A stretch of 64,000 nt of DNA. Origin: Fangia hongkongensis FSC776 = DSM 21703 (GTDB lineage: Bacteria > Pseudomonadota > Gammaproteobacteria > Francisellales > Francisellaceae). Of the stretch, positions 24,100 to 46,809 are shown piece after piece. The translations under genes and the position numbers were made by a program. The stretch is from the NCBI RefSeq assembly GCF_000379445.1, contig NZ_KB902270.1, positions 62,001 through 126,000 of the forward strand. Reading direction: 5' to 3'. Position 1 is the first letter of the stretch. Every line of letters begins with the position of its first letter. Under the pieces are notes generated by a model. That model was not told where the DNA came from. It saw only the letters and a program-made list of their open reading frames with translations, and searched no databases.

Positions 24100-24714
24100 A
24101 TGTTTGATTCAAATAAATTTAAATTGCTAAGAAAGCAAAAAAAATTGACTTTAAAAGAAATCGCTGAATACGCTGGGGTATCAACTGTAGCCGTTCATAA
24201 ATGGGAAAAAAAAGAGACAACACCCAACAGTGAAAATATTATGAGGATATGTGAGATGCTTGATGTTGACCCTTATGAATTCATAGAAAAAAAGAAGACA
24301 ACAAAAAAAATAAGCAACATGCTTGAAATTGGAATTAAAAAAGTGCCTATAATATATTTAACCAATGTTAAGGAATTTTTACGGATGGATAAGATAAATT
24401 CTTACGATAAGTATATAATATGCCCAGCTGATCACAGTGATAAAACATTTGCATTTTCGGTTGATTCTGACTCTATGGAGTCCTCTATGGGTAAGACATA
24501 CCCAAAAGGAGTTCAAGTATATTGCGATACACAAAAAAAAGCTAATCTTGGAGATAATGTTGTAGCTGAGATGGAAGATGGCGAGATCATATTTGCAAAC
24601 TTTGCTAACCATAGAGGTAAAAACATACTTAAGCCATTAAATACAAGATATCCAATTATAGAAGGTAATTTTAAAATACTAGGCAAAGTTATTGGGTCTT
24701 ATCATCCAGAATAG
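24100..24714 (+). CDS. CI-like phage repressor, S24 (LexA-type) family, lysine apparently lost
   Basis: 204 residues: an N-terminal HTH (LTLKEIAEYAGVSTVAVHKWEK) and a C-terminal S24 fold. The serine motif is VDSDSMESS, but the strand that normally carries the catalytic Lys (VKRL-like) reads GEIIFANFANHRGKN, with Ala/Phe at the expected position. Self-cleavage may therefore not occur. The antirepressor-type genes further right (Rha, AntA/AntB) would fit induction by protein binding. It is divergent from the cro-like gene. Confidence 0.85.
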   Translation: MFDSNKFKLLRKQKKLTLKEIAEYAGVSTVAVHKWEKKETTPNSENIMRICEMLDVDPYEFIEKKKTTKKISNMLEIGIKKVPIIYLTNVKEFLRMDKINSYDKYIICPADHSDKTFAFSVDSDSMESSMGKTYPKGVQVYCDTQKKANLGDNVVAEMEDGEIIFANFANHRGKNILKPLNTRYPIIEGNFKILGKVIGSYHPE

Positions 24715-28962: not shown

Positions 28963-30333
28963 GTGCTTGTAAATTTCACTTTTAAAAACTGGATGTCATA
29001 TAAGAATGAAACCGTTTTCACAATGGTTGGCACCAATGAGAGGCAGCATAGTCATAGAATACCTAAAGTGCCAAAATTTGGTCAATCGTTTAAAATTCTC
29101 CCATTTTGTTCAATTTACGGTGGCAATGCATCAGGAAAATCAAACTTAATTGAAGCGCTTGCCTTTGTTAAACAGTTTGTAGTTAACCAATTGACATTAA
29201 ACAGCGTAACACATACTAAGCCATATAAGCTAGATAAGAGCTCAAGATCTAGTCCAACTAGTTTCAAAATAGAAATGCTTATTAATGAAGTAATATATGA
29301 ATATTCATTTTCGCTTAACTATCGCAAAGTAATGAGTGAAAAGCTTGTTGAAATAAATAGCACAAGTGAAAAAACCTTATTTAAAAGAATCTTTGATGAT
29401 GAACATAATAAATACATATATACATATCACGATAAAATAAATAAGGATGATCAAGTAGGAAATAGGATTGCAGTGATTGCTGATGGTACGGCAGAAAATA
29501 GATTGTTTTTAACAAATACAATAAATCAACAAATAGACATATTTGCTAACGTATATGACTGGTTTAATAATAAACTTGAAATTGTCACACCGACAGCAAA
29601 GTTTGAGTTATTTGAACATTTTTTTGATGAAGGAAGTAAGCTACATATTGAAATGAATAAAATATTAGCAATGCTTGATACCGGAATAACCAAACTTGGC
29701 TTCGACCGTATAAATATTAATAGTACTGAAAATGATAAATTTAAACAGACATTAAGCACACTACTTTCACGTCATAAATCAGTTAAATTTACTGATGAAA
29801 CACAAAGATATGTTGCCAAACTAGATGCTAATGGAGAAATTGTTCTAGATAAATTAGTTACATATCATGAAGACGACTCAGGAAAATCATTAAAATTTGA
29901 TGTAAATGATGAGTCAGATGGCACAAGGAGATTAATTGATTTACTTCCGATTATGCTTGATGCAATACAAGAAACCTCTAACAAAGTTTATATCGTTGAT
30001 GAAATAGAAAGAAGTTTAAATACTATTTTAACAAAAGCTTTAATTGATCTTTATTTTGAAAAATGCAATAACAAAAGTAGATCGCAACTGATTGTTTCAA
30101 CTCATGATTTGCTACTTATGGATCAAAAATTTATGAGGAGGGATGAAATGTGGGTAACAGAGAGAGGAATAGATGGAAGCTCTTGCCTATACTCTTTTAG
30201 TGATTTTAAAGATGTTAGAAATGATAAAGATATCAGAAAAAGCTACTTGCAAGGGAAAATGGGCGGTATCCCTAAAATTTTAATTGACCATAGCTTACAA
30301 ATTTTAAACAGGGAAGAACCTAGTGCCAAATAG
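28963..30333 (+). CDS. RloA/AbiLi-like AAA15 ATPase (phage defence)
   Basis: A 456-residue ABC-type/AAA15 ATPase. It starts with FTFKNWMSYKNETVFTM, Walker A is YGGNASGKSNL (about residue 55), and the C-terminal half has 'SDGTRRLIDLLPIM' (signature), IVDEIERSL (Walker B) and STHDLLLMD (H-loop). The start is GTG with AGGA upstream. It overlaps the RloB-like gene by 11 bases. The pair matches the RloAB/AbiL arrangement, a putative abortive-infection system, here carried by the prophage. Confidence 0.85.
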   Translation: MLVNFTFKNWMSYKNETVFTMVGTNERQHSHRIPKVPKFGQSFKILPFCSIYGGNASGKSNLIEALAFVKQFVVNQLTLNSVTHTKPYKLDKSSRSSPTSFKIEMLINEVIYEYSFSLNYRKVMSEKLVEINSTSEKTLFKRIFDDEHNKYIYTYHDKINKDDQVGNRIAVIADGTAENRLFLTNTINQQIDIFANVYDWFNNKLEIVTPTAKFELFEHFFDEGSKLHIEMNKILAMLDTGITKLGFDRININSTENDKFKQTLSTLLSRHKSVKFTDETQRYVAKLDANGEIVLDKLVTYHEDDSGKSLKFDVNDESDGTRRLIDLLPIMLDAIQETSNKVYIVDEIERSLNTILTKALIDLYFEKCNNKSRSQLIVSTHDLLLMDQKFMRRDEMWVTERGIDGSSCLYSFSDFKDVRNDKDIRKSYLQGKMGGIPKILIDHSLQILNREEPSAK

Positions 30334-30916
30334 ACGATTTTCAAGATCAAGCGGTCATAGAAGATATAAAAAGCTGTTTGTTATAATTCCTGAGGGGTTG
30401 AAGACTGAAATAGCTTATTTCAAGTTAATTAACCAACTCCTTGACGACATTGTTATCAAGATACAAAAGCCAAAACACCCGCAACCTGAGCATCTTCTGT
30501 TAAAAGCAAAAGAATATATTAGATTAGAAAAGCCTAATAAATCTGACAATATATGGATAATTTTAGATAAAGATAGCAATACAAAAGAAAGTATAATATC
30601 TCTCAATAAATGGGTTAGAGAATCCCCTGATAACAGAGGAGTTGGCTTTAGCAATCCATGCTTTGAATACTGGATAATACTTCACTTTAAAAAAACTGAT
30701 ATGTCAATATCTGATAGCCAAGATTGTAAGAACAAATTAAAAAATTTAATTGAAAATTATAATAGTAACTTAGATAGCTCTATCATTGGCATTGAAAAAA
30801 TTAACCATGCTATATCAGTAGCAGAAAATAATGACTACGGTTCAGTGCTTGATTTATATGATACTTGTGGTACAAATCTTTATGTGCTTCTTAAAATGAT
30901 GATTAATAGTAAATGA
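30323..30916 (+). CDS. RloB/AbiLii-like protein
   Basis: A 197-residue RloB-family protein: RRYKKLFVIIPEGLKTEIAYF at the start (EG-KTE motif), NIWIILDKD with Asp residues, and SNPCFEYWIILHF. These acidic motifs suggest a TOPRIM-like/nuclease-type fold. The start is GTG with a GGAAG site inside the end of the ATPase gene. It is the likely effector controlled by the ATPase. Confidence 0.85.
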   Translation: MPNRRFSRSSGHRRYKKLFVIIPEGLKTEIAYFKLINQLLDDIVIKIQKPKHPQPEHLLLKAKEYIRLEKPNKSDNIWIILDKDSNTKESIISLNKWVRESPDNRGVGFSNPCFEYWIILHFKKTDMSISDSQDCKNKLKNLIENYNSNLDSSIIGIEKINHAISVAENNDYGSVLDLYDTCGTNLYVLLKMMINSK

Positions 30917-30958: not shown

Positions 30959-31993
30959 TTATTTAAGAACTTCCTTAACTAATTTAATAAACTCATGACT
31001 ATCTGCAAAATAATTTGGATATGCTTTTTTTAACTGTTTTAATGGCTGTGCATTAATTAATACTACATCTGTATTTTCATCATCATTAAATTGTTTTTCA
31101 AAGGCCAAGTAAGTATCAATCGCTCTTTGATAACTATTTTTAGTAAATGGTGTTATTTTTATTTCTTTATCTTGCAATATTAGCAGATAATACTCACCAA
31201 TGTTTGATGCTTTTTTATCTATAAATTGTGTTGTTACCTGATACTTCGATAAAGTAGACAAGGCATTAAGTTGATCATTAAGCTCAATGATTTTTTTGAT
31301 ATTATCATCACTATCAAATTGTCCTGTAGTTGGAAGACCTTCAATCTTGGCAAATTCATCAGAAACCCTTGCGAAGAATTCTAGCCATTTTTGATCGCCA
31401 TCACCCGACTTTAATCCCTGTTGATTGAATATTCCAACAATCTCCACAGCAGTCGCCCAAGCATGCTGCACCTTTGTTCTTAACTGCACTTCTATAGTTA
31501 ACCCTTTGTACTTAAGGTTTTCTTCCTTTATAGGCTTATATTTATAGCTTAAATGCAAACTTCTGTAACCAGACTCTTTTGGATATCTAAAATAGTCTTT
31601 TTCTAATTTCATTGCTTTTTTAGTAAGCTGATTAAGAAGCTTAATAGCTTTCCCTGTATCAGCAACCACTGCACGGCATCCACCTATGTCTTGCATTCTG
31701 CTAAGTTTCATCCCTGATAATCGTTTTAGCTTGTGTATAATCGATGGCGCTCTTTTTAACCTTTGACTGAGAATAACATTTTTATCTAAAAATTGCGCCT
31801 TTTGCTTTAGTAGTTTATAAGCAGCACTCAAAGGTTGTGCATGCATCGCCCTCCAATTAGATAGGGATTGCATAGCACTGCTTGTTACCTCTAATCTGAG
31901 TTCTTTTCCAGCCCTGTCAGCCTCACTTTTCGATATTGTTTGCTCATCTGTAACCATAGCATTGTGATTTTCTAATACAATATAAAACTTCAT
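30959..31993 (-). CDS. RelA/SpoT-domain (alarmone-synthetase type) protein
   Basis: A 344-residue protein. Synthetase-fold motifs: LSRMQDIGGCRAVV, YPKESGYRSLHLSY, IEVQLRTKVQHAWATAVE. There is no hydrolase domain. An N-terminal helical part (ADRAGKELRLE...NWRAMHAQPL) and a C-terminal domain are family-typical. It could make (pp)pGpp or modify tRNA like toxic SAS enzymes; the sequence alone does not decide. No obvious antitoxin is adjacent. Convergent with the RloB gene. Confidence 0.82.
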   Translation of the reverse strand: MKFYIVLENHNAMVTDEQTISKSEADRAGKELRLEVTSSAMQSLSNWRAMHAQPLSAAYKLLKQKAQFLDKNVILSQRLKRAPSIIHKLKRLSGMKLSRMQDIGGCRAVVADTGKAIKLLNQLTKKAMKLEKDYFRYPKESGYRSLHLSYKYKPIKEENLKYKGLTIEVQLRTKVQHAWATAVEIVGIFNQQGLKSGDGDQKWLEFFARVSDEFAKIEGLPTTGQFDSDDNIKKIIELNDQLNALSTLSKYQVTTQFIDKKASNIGEYYLLILQDKEIKITPFTKNSYQRAIDTYLAFEKQFNDDENTDVVLINAQPLKQLKKAYPNYFADSHEFIKLVKEVLK

Positions 31994-32104
31994 GTTATAT
32001 ATATGATACTAAAAAGCAAATAATATTGTTAATGCAAAATGATTAGTTTAATATTATATAATCACTGATAATATTCACAATAATAATTCATTATGGAGAA
32101 TTTA

Positions 32105-33151
32105 GTGTCTAAGATAATATCGTTATTCAATCACAAAGGTGGAGTAAGCAAAACAACGACAACTTTTAACTTAGGTTGGAGTTTGGCTAACTGTGGGTTT
32201 AAAACACTTATAGTAGACGCTGATCCACAGTGCAATCTTACGGCATATGTTCTAGGGCTGCAGGACAATAATGAATTTGATACATTTTACAATAGTAAAC
32301 ACAATGATGATATATATGCTGCTATTGAGCCAATAATTTCTGGTTCAACTGTTGATACTAGATCAATAAAACCAGCAAAAACTTTACACGATAATTTGTT
32401 TTTAGCTGCTGGGAATATTGCTATGGCAGAACTTGATGTGTCTTTGTCAATAGGTTTAGCAGGCGGTAGATTTGTCCAATTTGCCCAACAGTTTGTTGGC
32501 GCATTTTATGCTACTATTAATGAAACCTGTAGAGTGCATGAGTTTGATGTTGTACTTATTGATATGAGTCCAAGCGCGTCAGCATTAAATAGGTGTATTT
32601 TAATGAGTAGTGATTACTTTATTGTCCCAACATCACCAGACTTTTTTTGCTATCAAGCAGTTCAGTCTCTATCTAAAATGCTCCCTCAATGGAATGATGA
32701 TTTTAAACCATTTAGATTAACAACAGTAAAGAATTCTTTATCGAAAACACCACCAAAAATGCTTGGTATAATTTCTCAAAGATATAGACCGCATAAAACA
32801 ACAAATAAAGATAAGGCAAAATCATTCCAAGTATGGGTTGATAGAATACAGCATGCATCAAAAAATATATTGGCAAATGAGCTTGCTAAATGCGACATGG
32901 TTATAAATGAGGAAGATTTTAGAAAATATCAAAAAGATGAATCACCATTTAATTTGATTAGTATCCCTGACTTCAATTCACTAATTGCAAAAGCTCAGGA
33001 AAACAGAAAGCCTGTTTTTACTTTAACTCAAGAAGAACTTAACCAAAGCGGTGTAGTTTATGAAAAATCAAAAGAAAATCAAGAGAAATTTGAAAAACTA
33101 TTCTCAAACCTTGCTGAAATAGTGTCAAAATTATGCAAACTATCGAAATGA
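32105..33151 (+). CDS. ParA-family ATPase
   Basis: About 348 residues. The deviant Walker A is FNHKGGVSKTTT, followed by LIVDADPQCNLT; Walker B-like VVLIDMSPSAS. I chose the GTG at 32105 (GGAG seven bases upstream) because the protein then starts SKIISLFNHKGG; an ATG at 32093 adds four residues. The stop overlaps the start of the mini-HTH gene as ATGA. ParA proteins normally work with a DNA-binding partner, here perhaps that HTH protein. Confidence 0.82.
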   Translation: MSKIISLFNHKGGVSKTTTTFNLGWSLANCGFKTLIVDADPQCNLTAYVLGLQDNNEFDTFYNSKHNDDIYAAIEPIISGSTVDTRSIKPAKTLHDNLFLAAGNIAMAELDVSLSIGLAGGRFVQFAQQFVGAFYATINETCRVHEFDVVLIDMSPSASALNRCILMSSDYFIVPTSPDFFCYQAVQSLSKMLPQWNDDFKPFRLTTVKNSLSKTPPKMLGIISQRYRPHKTTNKDKAKSFQVWVDRIQHASKNILANELAKCDMVINEEDFRKYQKDESPFNLISIPDFNSLIAKAQENRKPVFTLTQEELNQSGVVYEKSKENQEKFEKLFSNLAEIVSKLCKLSK

Positions 33152-34355: not shown

Positions 34356-34505
34356 GGGTGTCGTAACCCGAATTGGACGTTTAACCACGTCATAGGTTGT
34401 CAAATTTTCCGACTGCTTTATTTTAAAGTTTCGGGTAGTAACGTGAATACAATAGCCTATGGTGAATAGCGTTGAATCCATCCTTTTCGGATTACGAACT
34501 GCCCG
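34356..34505 (+). ncRNA. Candidate structured leader RNA with pseudoknot upstream of rha-like gene
   Basis: Pairings seen: GGGT/ACCC (34356-34369), GACGT/ACGTC (34376-34391), CATAGG (34391-34396) with CCTATG (34456-34461), CGGGTAGT (34432-34439) with ACTGCCCG (34498-34505, one G-U), AATCC/GGATT (34475-34493). The third and fourth cross, so they form a pseudoknot or two alternative folds. The spacer (34286-34541) has no gene, and the Rha gene starts 37 bases after the last stem with its ribosome site free. Confidence 0.5.
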
Positions 34506-34541
34506 AACATTAAATATCGTAATAAGAAAAGGAATAGAATC

Positions 34542-35450
34542 ATGGACATAAATACACTCGTATCAATCAATCATAGTCAACCTGTAACTACTAGCTTAAT
34601 TGTTGCTGAAACTTTTAATAAACGCCACACTCACGTGTTAGACAAAATAAATTCACTTGATTGTTCTAGTGATTTTGCATCAGCCAACTTTTCGGCTCAC
34701 GCAGAAAAAATAAAGGCTGGAGCTGTTTTTAGAAATTCAAAAGTCTACACAATAACTAAAGATGGGTTTATGTTTTTGGTTATGGGGTTTACTGGCAAAA
34801 AAGCAGCAGCTATTAAAGAAAAATACATCGAAGCATTTAATGCCATGGCGAAGCGATTGCAGGAGATTGAACAGGAAGAGTTGCAAACCAAACTAAAAGC
34901 CCAGCAAGATAAGATAAAGAAATTAGAATCGTCTAGCTACACACGCAACACAGTCTCCCCTCCCCAAATGCAGCACATTCAACAAATCTGTAAAGTTAAT
35001 GTTGGATACGGCAAAGCACATGATACGCATAAGTCATTTTATGATTGGCTGCATGATAGATATCAAATAAACAAATACGATCAAATGACGCAATGCCAAT
35101 GTTTAGACTTGTGTAAATTGGTTGATGACTCACCTTATGATTATGACTATTCGCCTAATGAGTTAGAAAAATTAATTAAGGTTAATGACAAACCACTATT
35201 TAAACCCAAACGCATCATTAGCTATGAATATCTATTATCTGGTGAGACAAACCTTGATAAGTTGTGCCTTACATTAAAGGAAAGAAAAATAGACAGCATG
35301 CCATTTTACAATGAACTAAAGTCATTTAGATATTTTTTAAAATCATATGAAGATTTTCTTATTCATTTTAAATCAAATATTGAGAAAGGATTCGATAATA
35401 TCATTGGAAATGCGGTTGATGCACCATTTTTACCTTCAATAACAAAATAA
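34542..35450 (+). CDS. Rha family phage regulatory protein
   Basis: A 302-residue protein. Residues 1-100 are the Rha domain (QPVTTSLIVAETFNKRHTHVLDKI...YTITKDGFMFLVMGFTGKKAAAIKEKYIEAFNAM), then a coiled coil and an unrecognised C-terminal domain. Rha proteins act in phage regulation and can block growth in IHF-lacking hosts. It has a good AAAGGAATAGAATC leader. Confidence 0.83.
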   Translation: MDINTLVSINHSQPVTTSLIVAETFNKRHTHVLDKINSLDCSSDFASANFSAHAEKIKAGAVFRNSKVYTITKDGFMFLVMGFTGKKAAAIKEKYIEAFNAMAKRLQEIEQEELQTKLKAQQDKIKKLESSSYTRNTVSPPQMQHIQQICKVNVGYGKAHDTHKSFYDWLHDRYQINKYDQMTQCQCLDLCKLVDDSPYDYDYSPNELEKLIKVNDKPLFKPKRIISYEYLLSGETNLDKLCLTLKERKIDSMPFYNELKSFRYFLKSYEDFLIHFKSNIEKGFDNIIGNAVDAPFLPSITK

Positions 35451-35467
35451 GATCATATTGATAATAA

Positions 35468-35749
35468 CTAATTAAAGTAGTGACTAATAAAACCAACAGC
35501 AATAGGTGAAATTATGGATACAGTAATGAAGCTGATTAAGAACATAAACTGCTTATCCATTTTAGATAATAGCTTATCTTCAACAGTGTCTATCTTGCTA
35601 TCTAATCTATCAATTCTAGATTCTACTCTATCTATTCTAGACTCTAGCTTTGTTGTTGATGTCTGCACCTCATCACGTGTAGCTGCATGCATAAGCAAGT
35701 CAACTATCTTATCTTGTGTTATTAAAACACCGTTTTCTTTTTTATCCAT
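35468..35749 (-). CDS. Coiled-coil membrane-anchored protein
   Basis: A 93-residue protein: a heptad helix with repeats (RIDRVESRIDRLDSKIDTVED) and a C-terminal transmembrane helix (FMFLISFITVSIISPIAVGF). It resembles DUF1640/Bdr-type small proteins found on phages and plasmids. Opposite in direction to the flanking genes. Role unknown. Confidence 0.65.
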   Translation of the reverse strand: MDKKENGVLITQDKIVDLLMHAATRDEVQTSTTKLESRIDRVESRIDRLDSKIDTVEDKLLSKMDKQFMFLISFITVSIISPIAVGFISHYFN

Positions 35750-35815
35750 TTATCGACTCCTATAAATTTCTGTACTAATTATAATCTAAAAAATGGCTAA
35801 CAACAATTTAAATTT

Positions 35816-35830
35816 GTAACCATAGGTTAC
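35816..35830. promoter_or_regulatory. Palindrome upstream of csrA
   Basis: GTAACC-ATA-GGTTAC, a perfect 6-bp inverted repeat 32-46 bases before the CsrA start. It may be an operator or a hairpin of the csrA leader. Confidence 0.4.
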
Positions 35831-35861
35831 GTAAAAAATAATTTACTTGAGGAAATATACA

Positions 35862-36020
35862 ATGCTAGTTTTAACAAGAAAAAAAGGTCAATCAATTATC
35901 ATAGGTGGCGTCATAAAGATAGTCCATTTAGGTCATGATAGATATGGTGCTGTAAAAATAGGAATTGAAGCACCCAAAAATATAAATATTGTAAGAAGTG
36001 AATTAATAGATGAAAAATAG
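35862..36020 (+). CDS. csrA: Phage-encoded CsrA (carbon storage regulator)
   Basis: A 52-residue CsrA: MLVLTRKKGQSIIIGG at the start (the LTRK-G--I-IG signature), then VIKIVHLGHDRYGAVKIGIEAPKNINIVRSEL, which keeps the key RNA-binding Leu-4/Arg-6 strand and the IGIEAP--I-I-R core. A strong GAGGA site precedes it, itself a GGA motif that CsrA could bind. It should bind GGA-bearing RNA hairpins and may reset host or phage mRNA use in lysogens. Confidence 0.9.
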   Translation: MLVLTRKKGQSIIIGGVIKIVHLGHDRYGAVKIGIEAPKNINIVRSELIDEK

Positions 36021-36386: not shown

Positions 36387-36510
36387 TTTGGCATGATCAA
36401 ATCTCCTCTTGGTTTTGCCAAATAGTTCCATGTAAACATCGGGGGTACGATGGCTGCGGGGCTGACACCGCTGGAAATTTTATATTTCTGGCGGATGTTG
36501 GTTGGAAACA
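36387..36510 (+). ncRNA. Candidate structured RNA (branched)
   Basis: Stems: TTTGGCA (36387-36393)/TGCCAAA (36416-36422); TTCCA (36426-36430)/TGGAA (36503-36507); AACATC (36435-36440)/GATGTT (36494-36499) enclosing GCGG/CCGC (36456-36471) and GAAAT/ATTTC (36474-36488). CATCG/CGATG (36437-36452) competes with the third stem. A small gene starts 13 bases after it. The shape and context recall c4-type antisense RNAs that control phage antirepressor operons; this likeness is from memory. Confidence 0.5.
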
Positions 36511-37147: not shown

Positions 37148-37684
37148 ATGGGCGAGCTTATTAATTTTGTAAAGCAATATTTTAGCAACATACAGGTTGA
37201 TACTGTTAATGCCAGAGAGTTGCATAAACTACTTGAATGCAAACGTGACTTTTCAAGCTGGATTAAAGGGAGAATTGAAAAGTATAAATTTGAAGAAGGT
37301 GCTGACTATATTTTAGTTTTCACCAATTCGGGGGAAAACCCCCAAGGTGGCCGACCATCAAAGGACTACTTCCTAACTATCGATATGGCCAAAGAACTAT
37401 CAATGGTTGAAAACAACGATAAAGGTAGACAAGCCAGACGCTACTTTATCGAGTGTGAAAAGAAAGTCAAATCTATCGATAAAGACCTTTCACTAACAGA
37501 GCAGATTAATGAGATAAGCAGAAAACTTGATCAAATTAAGATAGCTGGCAGCAAATGGGGATATATCGGCGCATCGGTTAAGAAAGCTAAGAAAAAAGCC
37601 AAGAGTGATTTTAATAGGCTTGTGGATGAAGCACAGATAAAACTTGATTTTGAATTTGATGAGGAGAGCAAGACATGTCACTAG
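37148..37684 (+). CDS. AntA/AntB-type antirepressor
   Basis: A 178-residue protein. Residues 15-100 match the AntA/AntB domain: [71 protein letters not shown]. The C-terminus is a charged helix. It likely inactivates a repressor by binding, which would fit the apparently non-cleavable CI-like protein. Confidence 0.85.
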   Translation: [178 protein letters not shown]

Positions 37685-37882: not shown

Positions 37883-38767
37883 ATGCAAGAATTAATCGTT
37901 AAACATATTTTTGACCTTGATGACAATATGTATGAAGTTAAAGCATCAATTCAAGAAGCTATCAAAAAATATGATGTTGTTGTCACTGATGATAGTGTCA
38001 AAGATGCAAAACAGATGATGGCTAGTATCAATAAGGATAAAAAGGTTTTTAGTGATAAGTGTAAAGAGTTTTTAGAAATAGTTGAACAGCCTATCAAGGA
38101 CTTTAAAGCTAGGCGAAAGGACATTGAGTCTCTATACGATGACTCTCGCAATCGCTTAAAAGTTCAAGTTGATAAATATGATGCTGAAAAGCTAGAGCGT
38201 ATTAAATTTATTGTATCTGAATATCGAAACATCTTATGTGATGAAAAAAGCATAGATCACAATGCTATAACTATCGATGACTTGGTAATGCTTACGGCAG
38301 TAACATCTAGCAACACCGTTTCATCTAAAACAAAGCAAGCTATAGAGCAACGTATTGCTATCGTAGAAGCTGAGATTTTGCGTGCAAGATTAGAAGCCGA
38401 AGAAAAAGCCAAACGAGATAGAGAAATAGCCGAGCAAGCACGCATTGAAGCTGAAGAAAGAGCAAAGCAGCGTGAAATTGAGCAAGCCAAACAATATGAG
38501 ATAGAAAAACAAAAGGCTGTTGAAGAAGCGCGCAAATCTGCTTTAAAAGAAACTATCACAGAATCAACACCTGCTTATCAGGCTTATGATGAAAAACCAA
38601 TAAGTGAGCCTGTTATTACTGACGATGGCAAACGTATTTTCACAATAACAGCTAGATTTGAGGTTAAAGCGCCAAGTGATACTCCAAAAGAAACCATTAA
38701 AAGTAAAATAACACAGTTAATGAATAAAGCTGGGGTTCCTGATATTAAGTCTATTGAGGTATGCTAA
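37883..38767 (+). CDS. DUF1351-like phage protein
   Basis: About 294 residues: N-terminal DUF1351 pattern (VVVTDDSVKDAKQMMASINK...FLEIVEQPIKDFKARRKDIES), a long Glu/Ala/Lys-rich coiled coil (about 165-225), and a C-terminal domain (FTITARFEVKAP-DT...KITQLMNKAG). It is regularly found next to phage exonuclease/RecT genes and probably assists recombination. The ATG at 37883 is chosen because earlier codons run back into the previous gene. Confidence 0.78.
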   Translation: MQELIVKHIFDLDDNMYEVKASIQEAIKKYDVVVTDDSVKDAKQMMASINKDKKVFSDKCKEFLEIVEQPIKDFKARRKDIESLYDDSRNRLKVQVDKYDAEKLERIKFIVSEYRNILCDEKSIDHNAITIDDLVMLTAVTSSNTVSSKTKQAIEQRIAIVEAEILRARLEAEEKAKRDREIAEQARIEAEERAKQREIEQAKQYEIEKQKAVEEARKSALKETITESTPAYQAYDEKPISEPVITDDGKRIFTITARFEVKAPSDTPKETIKSKITQLMNKAGVPDIKSIEVC

Positions 38768-38768
38768 G

Positions 38769-39449
38769 ATGCTGGAGCTAAATTACTCAGACCTAGAAGA
38801 ATATTTACCACCTTATCTTGTTAAAAAGCCAAAGTATAAGATACATAATTGTGAACAAAATAGCGATGAATGGCATCAAATTAGATGTGGACGAATTACG
38901 GCTTCAAACATGCAAATATTAATGGGTGACGGCGATACGCGCGAATCAATCATACAAAGCAAAGCTGCTGAGGTTATCACTGGCGTTCTGGATACTTCTG
39001 ACACATTTACAAGCAAAGACACTGCTAGAGGTCATGAGTTAGAAGATGAGGCACGTATGCGCTACTGTGAGGTGTTTGGCATTGAAGTTGAGACGGTTGG
39101 ATTTATTGAGCTTGATGAATTTGTCGGGGTCAGCCCCGATGGTCTAGCAAATAAAGATGGATTATTCGAAGCCAAATGCCCAAAAAATAAAAACTATCTA
39201 AAGCAGATTGCTAATGGGCCACGTGAATTACTAGAGCTTTACAAAACTCAAATGCAAACACAAATGTGGGTTTGTGAGCGTGATTGGTGTGATTATGTTA
39301 TTTATAACCCAAACTTTCAACATGATATTCATAAATGGCGTTTTTATCGTGATGACTTGCACATTGAACGCATAAAAAAAGCGGTTGAAAGAGCTAAAGC
39401 GGATATTGCCAAATATATCGCAAAATTTAATAAAGTAATAGGAGAATAA
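38769..39449 (+). CDS. YqaJ-type phage exonuclease
   Basis: About 226 residues. The lambda-exonuclease/YqaJ motifs are present: QNSDEWHQIRCGRITAS, GHELEDEARMRY, FVGVSPDGL with Asp, and GLFEAKCPK with Glu and Lys. It degrades one DNA strand from a double-strand end for the annealing partner. The ATG at 38769 lies just after the previous stop; a TTG 15 bases upstream is less likely. Confidence 0.88.
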   Translation: MLELNYSDLEEYLPPYLVKKPKYKIHNCEQNSDEWHQIRCGRITASNMQILMGDGDTRESIIQSKAAEVITGVLDTSDTFTSKDTARGHELEDEARMRYCEVFGIEVETVGFIELDEFVGVSPDGLANKDGLFEAKCPKNKNYLKQIANGPRELLELYKTQMQTQMWVCERDWCDYVIYNPNFQHDIHKWRFYRDDLHIERIKKAVERAKADIAKYIAKFNKVIGE

Positions 39450-39450
39450 A

Positions 39451-40359
39451 ATGGAAAATAAATTGACTAAAACTGATAGCAATAATTTATCTTACATGCA
39501 ACCTCAAAACATGTCAGAAGCCATGCAATACGCTGACATGGTAGCAAATTCTAGCATGGTTCCAAATCAATATAGAAACAAGCCAGGCGATATTTTAATT
39601 GCTATGCAAATGGGCGCAGAACTAGGATTAAAACCCATTCAATCATTACAAAACATTGCTGTTATTAATGGCCGCCCTACCATATGGGGTGACGCGTTAT
39701 TGGCGATTGCTCAAGGGTCAGCATCTTGCGAATACGTACATGAAAGTTTTGACGAAAATACAATGACCGCAACATGTACCGCAAAACGTGTTGGTTATCC
39801 TGAGACTGTTCGCACTTTTTCACAGAGTGATGCCAAAAAAGCTGGATTAATGAGCAAGAAAGGCGTGTGGGAACAGTATCCTAAACGTATGATGCAAATG
39901 AGAGCTAGAGCATTCGCATTGCGTGATGCTTTTGCTGCTGAGCTTAGAGGGATACAAGTTAGCGAAGAAGTCAACGACTACAAAGAACCCAAAGATATCA
40001 CCCCAAAATCACCAAAAAATGAAACGTCACAGGCTTATGCTGCGATGATTGAGAAGTCTAACCAAAAAGAAAGTAATGTCATCGATGCAGATTCAGAGCT
40101 TAAAACACAAACGCGTGACTTTAAAAAGAAACTGCAAAAGCTAGGTATTAATACGGCTGAAGAATACAAAGCGTTCATCACGCATGCAGATATTGAAGTA
40201 AATGACGTTGAGCTATTAAGTAGTCTCAATCAGAATACTGGCCTTCTTGAAGCATTATACAATGAGTTTGTAAGTAATCAAAAGCCAAAAGAGCACCCAA
40301 GCCAAACTATGGATTTGGATGCTGCTTTTGACGAGGCTTATGCGGAAAACAGCAAATGA
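39451..40359 (+). CDS. RecT-family single-strand annealing protein
   Basis: A 302-residue RecT-type recombinase. Motifs: EAMQYADMVANSSMVPNQY, GDILIAMQMGAELGLKPIQSL, NIAVINGRPTIWGDALL, YPKRMMQMRARAFALRDAF. It pairs with the YqaJ exonuclease upstream (1-base gap) to make a Red-like module. The C-terminal 100 residues are acidic and variable. Confidence 0.9.
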   Translation: MENKLTKTDSNNLSYMQPQNMSEAMQYADMVANSSMVPNQYRNKPGDILIAMQMGAELGLKPIQSLQNIAVINGRPTIWGDALLAIAQGSASCEYVHESFDENTMTATCTAKRVGYPETVRTFSQSDAKKAGLMSKKGVWEQYPKRMMQMRARAFALRDAFAAELRGIQVSEEVNDYKEPKDITPKSPKNETSQAYAAMIEKSNQKESNVIDADSELKTQTRDFKKKLQKLGINTAEEYKAFITHADIEVNDVELLSSLNQNTGLLEALYNEFVSNQKPKEHPSQTMDLDAAFDEAYAENSK

Positions 40360-40950: not shown

Positions 40951-42288
40951 ATGTCTAAATTTCCAATTGAAAAGCCTCCTGTTTTAACAGAAAAAATCAC
41001 AGTTAGCCTAAACGGGGCCACTGATCTAATTCTGCATAAAGGATCTTACCTTCATTGGGATGAACTTAGATGGAGACTTTCTGGCGATAATAAAGAAGCA
41101 AAGATACATAGGTGGAACACTATTAAAATACTAAGGAATACATACTCTAAGACCATTGATTTAAAGTCAGCAAGTGGAGAAAATTTTAAATTTCTAATAC
41201 ATTCATCATCCGAGGCTAAAATACACCATATAGTTTCAATTGCCAGAGGAACCTTCAATAACTTTGGAACAGAAATAGCTCCAGAGGAAATAACTAAAAA
41301 ATTTCTATTGTCCTCATTGATCATGGAGGAAGCAATAACTAGCGCCCAACTTGAAGGTGCAGCAACTACAAGAGAAGATGCAAAAAAAATGCTCCAAGAT
41401 GAGATTGAGCCAAAAAACGAAGACGAAAGAATGATACTTAATAACTATCATTTATTAATGGCAGCAAAAGATCATATACACGATGACTTATCCATAGACC
41501 TTATATTGAAATTCCATGAAATAGCAACGCAAAAAACTACTGAAAATAATGTTATTCCTGGTGAGTTTCGCAAAACAGATGATATATATGTAAAAGATTC
41601 TGATGACAATATCATTTACACTCCACCTAGCAGCAAGCTTTTAAATAGTAGATTAAAACTTCTTTGCAACTTTGCAAATACAAACCATTCTGGAACTGAT
41701 GGCAGCTTATTTATAAACCCTGTAGTAAAAGCTATTATACTTCATTTCATGATAGGATATGAGCATCCATTTAGGGATGGCAACGGTAGAACTGCAAGGT
41801 GTCTATTTTATTGGTTTATGCTGAAAAATAAATATGATATTTTTGAGTATATATCCATTAGCAAATTACTGAAAGTCTCACCTAAAAAATATGGCTTATC
41901 ATACCTTTATGTAGAAACTGATGATTATGATTTGACATACTTTATTGATCATCAGCTGGAAATAATAGTTAGGGCATTTGATGACTTGAAAAACTATGTT
42001 CAAAACAAGGTGAATGAGTACAAGAATACTTTATCATCTCTTGATAATTCAAAATATGCAGATCTGAATTTTTTTAAAAAAGATATATTAAAAAAATCAC
42101 TCAAGTCACCAGGTAGAATTTTCACAGTTAAAGAAATTTCTAGTGATTATGGTATTTCTAGGCCAACAGCAAGAAACTATCTAGAAGACTTAGCAGCGGA
42201 AAGCTTACTATATAAATCAAAAGACAAAAAAAATATTCTTTACATTTCACCATCTGATTTGCACAAAAAGATCAGAGACAACAAATAA
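40951..42288 (+). CDS. Fic family protein (AMPylator type) with C-terminal winged helix
   Basis: A 445-residue protein. The active-site motif is HPFRDGNGRTAR (about residues 272-283), complete with catalytic His and the anion-binding loop. An inhibitory helix (TSAQLEG, about 131-137) lies N-terminal to it, the class II arrangement. The C-terminus (RIFTVKEISSDYGISRPTARNYLEDL) is a winged helix. It probably modifies a host protein with AMP and may regulate its own transcription. Confidence 0.88.
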   Translation: MSKFPIEKPPVLTEKITVSLNGATDLILHKGSYLHWDELRWRLSGDNKEAKIHRWNTIKILRNTYSKTIDLKSASGENFKFLIHSSSEAKIHHIVSIARGTFNNFGTEIAPEEITKKFLLSSLIMEEAITSAQLEGAATTREDAKKMLQDEIEPKNEDERMILNNYHLLMAAKDHIHDDLSIDLILKFHEIATQKTTENNVIPGEFRKTDDIYVKDSDDNIIYTPPSSKLLNSRLKLLCNFANTNHSGTDGSLFINPVVKAIILHFMIGYEHPFRDGNGRTARCLFYWFMLKNKYDIFEYISISKLLKVSPKKYGLSYLYVETDDYDLTYFIDHQLEIIVRAFDDLKNYVQNKVNEYKNTLSSLDNSKYADLNFFKKDILKKSLKSPGRIFTVKEISSDYGISRPTARNYLEDLAAESLLYKSKDKKNILYISPSDLHKKIRDNK

Positions 42289-45495: not shown

Positions 45496-46638
45496 TTACA
45501 ACAGATCAACTGCTTTCTTTTTATGCTCAGGCGCTAAATGAGCATATATAAGCGTCATTTTAATATCACTGTGCCCCATTAGTTCTCGCACTGTATTTAA
45601 ATCAACGCCGCGCATTATAAGCTTACTAGCAAACGTATGGCGCAAGTCATGAAATCTAAAGTTATCGATGTCGGCTTGTTCTAAGAGTTTTTTGAACCAA
45701 TCACGATTTTTTGTATATGGCTCTTTCGTTCTTGGGTTGGTAAATACATACTTAGATAACTTGTTATCAATTTGGCTTTGTAACGCATCAATGCTTTTTT
45801 GATTCAATGGTACATAACGCATTTTTTGTGCTTTGGTGTTTTCACTTCTGAGTGCTACATATTCTTTGTTTAAATTAATATCCTTAAACTCTAGGCTTAG
45901 AATTTCACCTGATCTCATACCAGTATTAAGTGCTAATGTGATAATGTTTTTATATTGAAAGTAAATATCGTTTACAGCATCTAGTAATCGTTGCTCTTCT
46001 TCTGCAGATAGATATCGCACTATATTGTGCCTATCCTCATGCAATAGTCTAACGCCTTTAATACCATTATACTCAGTAAATCCATTTTCAACGGCAATGT
46101 TTAAAGATGCTTTAAAAGCGGTAATAATGCGATTAATGCGCTTATTAGTAACTCCCCTTTCACTTTGGTAATTGCCAACAAACATATTTAGCTTTTTGTT
46201 ATTAATATGGTCTAGACGCATTTTATGAAAATTTTTAAGCGTATTCTTAAGCATGTTTATGGTTGACTGATCACCTTTCCTATTTTGTTTAAACCAGTTG
46301 AAATAAAACTCATTAAGATACTCTCCAAAAGTACAAATATCTGAATTACCATGTTTGGCATTGTTTTTCTCTCGCTGTATATCTACACCTTGAGATAGCA
46401 AGCCAAATAACCTTATTGCTTCATTCCTAGCCTGAACGAGTGTAATAGATCCATGACGTCCAATAGTATAGCGAACATATTTACCTTGATTATTCCTATA
46501 TCTAATAGCGTAATACTTATCGCCACTTGTGTTTACACGAAGCATTAAGCCCTTGCAATCGCTATCCGTATAATCTATTCTTTTTTCAGGTGGTTCTAGT
46601 CCGTCTATGAATGTTTTAGTAAATTTTAATTTTGGCAT
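45496..46638 (-). CDS. Tyrosine integrase (DUF4102 N-terminus)
   Basis: About 380 residues. N-terminus FIDGLEPPEKRIDYTDSDCKGLMLRV is the P4/prophage-type arm-binding domain. Catalytic residues are visible: Arg in NTGMRSGEIL, His-x-x-Arg in FHDLRHTFAS, His in LMGHSDIKMT and the Tyr in LIYAHL. It lies just inside the tRNA-Gln attachment site, so it integrated this phage there. I took the ATG at 46638; an in-frame start 24 bases earlier adds MLHPIRTP. Confidence 0.92.
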   Translation of the reverse strand: MPKLKFTKTFIDGLEPPEKRIDYTDSDCKGLMLRVNTSGDKYYAIRYRNNQGKYVRYTIGRHGSITLVQARNEAIRLFGLLSQGVDIQREKNNAKHGNSDICTFGEYLNEFYFNWFKQNRKGDQSTINMLKNTLKNFHKMRLDHINNKKLNMFVGNYQSERGVTNKRINRIITAFKASLNIAVENGFTEYNGIKGVRLLHEDRHNIVRYLSAEEEQRLLDAVNDIYFQYKNIITLALNTGMRSGEILSLEFKDINLNKEYVALRSENTKAQKMRYVPLNQKSIDALQSQIDNKLSKYVFTNPRTKEPYTKNRDWFKKLLEQADIDNFRFHDLRHTFASKLIMRGVDLNTVRELMGHSDIKMTLIYAHLAPEHKKKAVDLL

Positions 46639-46764
46639 TGGGGTTCGTATGGGGTGCAGCAAAAAGTTAAAGTATTATCACATAATACAAACTTTTTTAA
46701 AGCAAAGCACTATAAGTAAAGGATTTTATAAAATAGTTAATTGCGATATTTATTATCAAAAGTT

Positions 46765-46809
46765 TTTTGATCCCGTCATGCGCAGGTTCGAATCCTGCCA
46801 GCCCAGCCA
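46765..46809 (+). other. attR: 3' half of tRNA-Gln(TTG), right end of prophage
   Basis: Anticodon loop TTTTGAT (46765-46771), stem CCCGT, variable CATGC, T-arm GCAGG-TTCGAAT-CCTGC, acceptor CAGCCCA, discriminator G, CCA (46807-46809). Spacing matches tRNA-Gln exactly, but the 5' half is missing, so this is the duplicated half-gene left by integration. Host DNA begins after it. Confidence 0.9.

Follow-up and report, generated by a model that had tools for sequence, protein, structure and literature searches.

Genes for CsrA homologues have already been published from phages, and in 2020 csrA was listed in 30 of 2,517 phages (PMC7366521). Among the described systems, the phi297-like Pseudomonas phages AUS531phi and phi297 carry the homologue Bci. 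AUS531phi without bci showed poorer infection, and the gene has been linked to changed host quorum sensing, motility, biofilm and pyocyanin (PMC7546807). Knock-down of gp28, the CsrA homologue encoded by coliphage PTXU04, gave smaller plaques (PMC11879866), and in phage JC1 csrA lies beside the capsid gene and was described as a 'moron' (PMC9144972). CsrA homologues are also found on conjugative mobile elements, namely RsmQ on plasmid pQBR103 and CsrT on Legionella ICEs; in Pseudomonas fluorescens, RsmQ assumes regulatory control and reprograms host behaviour through translation (PMC9928087). Here, we describe a compact prophage csrA from Francisellaceae, a family whose members otherwise have one chromosomal csrA or none, and compare it with these systems, as a contribution to the question of what phages use CsrA for.

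The window, meaning the whole 64,000-nucleotide stretch that was analysed, corresponds to positions 62001-126000 of contig C32 of the host genome (G000). A tyrosine integrase gene adjoins a 40-bp direct repeat, the other copy of which (C32:54348) sits in the 3' part of a tRNA-Gln gene, 7.65 kb to the left of the window. The integrase and the paired repeats thus delimit a prophage of 54.4 kb, of which the left 7.65 kb lie outside the window; the IMG/VR entry for the same element is a provirus of 54,113 bp. Terminase, portal and capsid genes of the prophage were confirmed by Pfam, and judged by its sequence the carrier of csrA appears to be an intact-looking temperate phage integrated in the chromosome. 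Its genes and right boundary, as used below, are:

24100-24714, + strand: CI-like repressor (HTH and S24 peptidase)
32093-33151, + strand: ParA-like partition protein
34542-35450, + strand: rha-family antirepressor (PF09669, 90.4 bits)
35468-35749, - strand: divergent gene for a 93-aa coiled-coil/TM protein, with an AGGAG site
35862-36020, + strand: csrA (PF02599; PHROG 9500)
37148-37684, + strand: AntA/AntB-family antirepressor (PF08346, 99.6 bits)
37883-38767, + strand: DUF1351 protein (PF07083), first gene of the recombination operon
38766-39449, + strand: YqaJ-type exonuclease (PF09588, 79.3 bits)
39451-40359, + strand: RecT-like annealing protein (34% identity to the Pfam-confirmed RecT in the equivalent position of locus L123)
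45496-46662, - strand: tyrosine integrase (PF00589, 131 bits)
46765-46804, + strand: attR, the 40-bp direct repeat TTTTGATCCCGTCATGCGCAGGTTCGAATCCTGCCAGCCC of the tRNA-Gln 3' part

The rightward early region runs in the order CI-like S24 repressor, ParA, Rha, the divergent small gene, csrA, small ORFs, AntA, DUF1351, YqaJ and the RecT-like protein, the last of which gave no Pfam hit itself. The csrA gene thereby lies between the two antirepressor genes, with the YqaJ exonuclease gene about 2.9 kb further on. The prophage also carries defence-type genes at 28963-30916 (+), 30959-31993 (-) and 40951-42288 (+), which are an AbiLi/AbiLii (RloB-like) pair, a RelA/SpoT-domain protein matching PADLOC PDC-S33 and a SoFic-type Fic protein.

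The csrA reading frame extends from the ATG at 35862 to the TAG at 36018-36020 and encodes a protein of 52 aa, MLVLTRKKGQSIIIGGVIKIVHLGHDRYGAVKIGIEAPKNINIVRSELIDEK. It matched the Pfam CsrA family (PF02599) with 66.9 bits (E 1.5e-18; curated cut-off 27 bits) over profile positions 1-50 of 53, and PHROG 9500, 'CsrA-like regulator', with E 1.1e-12; the match to the CsrA family is far beyond chance. The closest solved proteins found by phmmer against the PDB were RsmE, RsmA and CsrA. The single-chain AlphaFold model, based on an alignment of 18 relatives, had a mean pLDDT of 84.7, and Foldseek matched it with probability 1.00 (TM about 0.73, rmsd 1.5) to 2jpp, which is RsmE bound to hcnA Shine-Dalgarno RNA, to 1vpz, a Pseudomonas CsrA homologue, and to 2bti. 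The Foldseek E-values were only about 0.003 (3e-3 to 2jpp), as expected because the query has just 52 residues. Three strands were called on the monomer model; the CsrA fold comprises five strands in an interlocked dimer.

Leu4, Arg6 and Arg45, the last being the equivalent of E. coli Arg44, were invariant across 17 aligned divergent CsrAs, 16 of them from phages or prophage-like elements, and L4 and R44 are critical to RNA binding by CsrA according to a review (PMC7652899). The prophage protein thus resembles the CsrA/RsmA/RsmE family in its full-length family match, in the equivalents of Leu4, Arg6 and Arg44 and, for the single chain, in its predicted RsmE/CsrA fold, but differs in being prophage-encoded, only 52 aa long and 36% identical to the host CsrA. 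Compared with the E. coli and host proteins, its C-terminus is very short and the turn before AVKIGI holds one residue more; these differences could weaken the dimer or RNA binding. The prophage copy is probably functional. An earlier note on this DNA, made from the letters alone, had read here a complete 52-aa CsrA within a lambdoid-type early region and had singled out the RNA-binding residues; the first point is borne out by Pfam, PHROG and the reading frame, the second is fair as to gene order, and the residues are retained in the alignment.

The host genome contains one further CsrA, which is chromosomal (contig C24), and at 36% identity to it the prophage gene does not look like a recent duplicate. 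That the phage had captured the host csrA recently was considered and rejected on this identity together with the position of the prophage protein outside the host clade. In the phylogenetic tree, which has few columns and many unresolved forks, the host CsrA copies formed one clade; forcing the prophage CsrA into it cost 20 log-likelihood units, with a p-AU of 0.058, and a placement within that clade is therefore not formally rejected. Monophyly of the three mobile csrA copies in Francisellaceae was neither shown nor rejected (p-AU 0.415).

The family search listed 30 further genomes; CsrA was tallied in 12 of them, and in 0 of 17 genomes of genus g5. Besides the genome of the window itself, two CsrAs were present only in Cysteiniphilum G004 and its congener G005, and phage genes adjoin the second csrA in all three genomes. 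The Cysteiniphilum second copies resemble the prophage CsrA in belonging to the same family and lying beside phage genes (58% identity for L102/L122 and 51% for L123), but their flanking antirepressors and RNAs are unlike those of the prophage. The L102 csrA adjoins a Rha gene and a Toprim protein gene. In L123, from G005, the order is KilA-N protein, csrA, small ORF, DUF1351, YqaJ and RecT, so that csrA closely precedes the same DUF1351-YqaJ-RecT operon. The DUF1351 and YqaJ proteins of L123 are 80% and 77% identical to those of the window, which shows that the neighbourhood of csrA was kept while csrA itself diverged far more. A relative of the prophage csrA is thus present at the matching place in a second prophage.

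When the host CsrA was used as query, 87 of 50,697 phage records, including a few bacterial-chromosome records, matched at E 0.001 or better. Such numbers, with the published list of 30 phages, do not support the view of the earlier note that so complete a CsrA in a prophage is unusual; the prophage copy is one more member of an already described kind. The csrA of Acinetobacter 'phage' MD-2021a was rejected as a phage gene, being flanked by alaS and thrA and plainly chromosomal.

The gene order of phi297 (CI, ParA, csrA, PD-(D/E)XK nuclease, RecT) recurs in the window as repressor (24100), ParA (32093), csrA (35862), exonuclease (38766) and RecT (39451). The prophage csrA is like bci in this order, in its early region and in its temperate carrier, but Bci has 123 aa with a C-terminal extension, belongs to a Pseudomonas host and was tested experimentally, whereas the prophage CsrA ends at 52 aa. 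PTXU04 gp28 is likewise a phage-encoded CsrA homologue, but of another kind of phage, in which csrA adjoins holin/endolysin genes; RsmQ and CsrT share the location on a mobile element but are carried by conjugative elements, not phages. Viral contigs L006, L010 and L011 and phage VvAW1 have csrA near RecT, YqaJ or SSB genes, and in Providencia and Vibrio phages csrA lies in the early region; in Bas95 it is outside the early region, as in PTXU04. In this uncounted comparison, early placement of phage csrA is recurrent, not universal. That csrA turns up repeatedly near YqaJ, RecT or SSB modules in phages that are not related points to a shared early role. Its other locations in PTXU04 and in JC1 (PMC9144972) count against the reading preferred below.

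We consider it rather likely that the prophage csrA is a functional CsrA of mobile-element lineage through which a temperate phage shifts host, and perhaps phage, translation toward phage production. By analogy with the tested relatives, the protein would most likely be expressed early and regulate translation, mainly that of host mRNAs. The gene would be switched on along with the early genes, and the 52-aa protein would form the usual dimer, with two surfaces each made of Leu4 and Arg6 of one chain and Arg45 of the other. These surfaces would bind GGA sites at ribosome-binding sites, and the prophage CsrA would add to or compete with the single host CsrA, so that host messages, and perhaps some phage messages, would be translated in a way that favours phage production. 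Experimental precedent for such rewiring of the host is provided by Bci (PMC7546807) and RsmQ (PMC9928087).

Immediately upstream of csrA lie two short elements:

35816-35830, no strand: perfect palindrome GTAACCATAGGTTAC (GTAACC-ATA-GGTTAC), between csrA and the divergent gene
35849-35855, + strand: Shine-Dalgarno-like GAGGAAA of csrA, about 7 nt before the ATG, found in the sequence

Because its upstream neighbour is divergently oriented, csrA most likely relies on a promoter of its own within 35750-35861, a gap of 112 bp. The GGA of GAGGAAA is unpaired in the predicted leader fold and is a possible, putative site of autoregulation. The palindrome occurs as a single copy, matches with up to two mismatches being no commoner than chance, and by a rough estimate a repeat of its size would not be very surprising in an AT-rich gap of 112 bp. 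It overlaps a weak promoter-like match, TTGTAA-17-AATAAT (35814-35842); because promoter-like matches around csrA are at chance level, its role as an operator is only a guess.

On either side of csrA lies a structured RNA:

34356-34516, + strand: structured RNA directly 5' of rha (RF02221, 33.1 bits)
36387-36510, + strand: structured RNA 3' of csrA and 5' of the 55-aa ORF 36524

Both fold far better than shuffled sequences (z -5.0 for 34356-34505 and z -5.7 for 36387-36510). The segment 34429-34516 matched the Rfam family sRNA-Xcc1 below threshold, with 33.1 bits (E 0.003) against a gathering score of 53. Pairing with UUUCGGG at 34429 could be contested by two other sequences of this RNA, ACCCGAA near 34366 and GCCCGAA near 34499, and the RNA may thus switch between two folds. 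A second weak sRNA-Xcc1 match was seen in the host genome at C7:64455, and a search of 143 gammaproteobacterial genomes yielded RNAs of the family in 14 genomes (L148-L167). In many cases a small accessory ORF begins a few to about 50 nt after the RNA ends, a layout suggestive of 5' leaders of mobile genes and not of free sRNAs. Searches by DNA similarity found no relatives of the two flanking RNAs in 30 genomes of the same family or in the phage collection.

The GGAs at 34375 and 36473 are paired in stems of the predicted folds. Two further GGAs, at 36504 and 36514, lie 10 nt apart at the ribosome site of ORF 36524; they are at best partly unpaired, and no stable hairpin was found there. ANGGA stood in a predicted hairpin loop in 1 of 63 prophage gene leaders and in 0 of 12 host leaders, which is no enrichment, simple motif scans being weak predictors of CsrA targets. 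No CsrB-like sponge was seen in the window (at most 5 ANGGA per 200 nt), and a CsrB (RF00018) search of the host genome gave no match. That the prophage CsrA acts through the two flanking RNAs is unsupported, since their GGAs are mostly paired and the 36504/36514 site lacks a stable hairpin. Of what the earlier note had described around csrA, the GGA-containing ribosome site, the palindrome and the structured RNAs are all borne out; GGA hairpins, for which it had proposed a search in those RNAs, were not found. Its interpretation as a whole stands in part: the complete CsrA, the RNA-binding residues and the early prophage region hold, great rarity and the GGA hairpins are not supported, and the proposed rewiring of host control seems plausible in outline.

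These observations also bear on whether the prophage CsrA acts chiefly on early mRNAs of the phage itself (antirepressors, small ORFs and recombination operon), timing the switch between lysis and lysogeny, and not on the host. The two flanking antirepressor genes, the structured RNA on each side, the double GGA in the leader of ORF 36524 and the position of csrA in relatives, where it closely precedes or adjoins the recombination module, are in keeping with this. It is nevertheless unlikely, as GGA is not enriched in the hairpin loops of the 63 leaders, the GGAs of the flanking RNAs are mostly paired, the double site has no stable hairpin, and the related prophage with csrA and the recombination operon in common yielded no DNA like that of the flanking RNAs. 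To a similar degree we doubt that a mobile-element CsrA lineage has been drawn into the early recombination and antirepressor control of temperate phages, where it would act on phage transcripts, perhaps together with the two structured leader RNAs, and set when lysis genes are translated. Against the preferred reading of a regulator directed mainly at host mRNAs count the lack of a conspicuous target among the phage mRNAs (1 of 63 leaders) and the failure to find a CsrB-family RNA in the host.

The gene could also be a passenger of benefit to the lysogen only, or a recent acquisition without present role, as the varying position of csrA among distant phages and the description of the JC1 gene as a 'moron' (PMC9144972) might suggest; this is quite improbable, because the reading frame and key residues are intact despite strong divergence, a second csrA recurs beside phage genes in three genomes of the family, and infection was reduced by knock-down or deletion of csrA in two other phages. 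About as improbable is an interfering decoy that forms mixed dimers with the host CsrA, or competes with it for RNAs that the decoy does not itself regulate, and so relieves host CsrA control: the intact core with a short C-terminus and 36% identity to the host CsrA would suit it, but a pure decoy would not need the RNA-binding residues and strand core, all of which are kept.

The Cysteiniphilum litorale locus L102/L122 has an unusual gene order, in which a tape-measure-like gene stands between the Rha antirepressor gene and csrA, beside an integrase gene and the Toprim gene; the locus may represent a satellite-like element or a prophage that has been rearranged.
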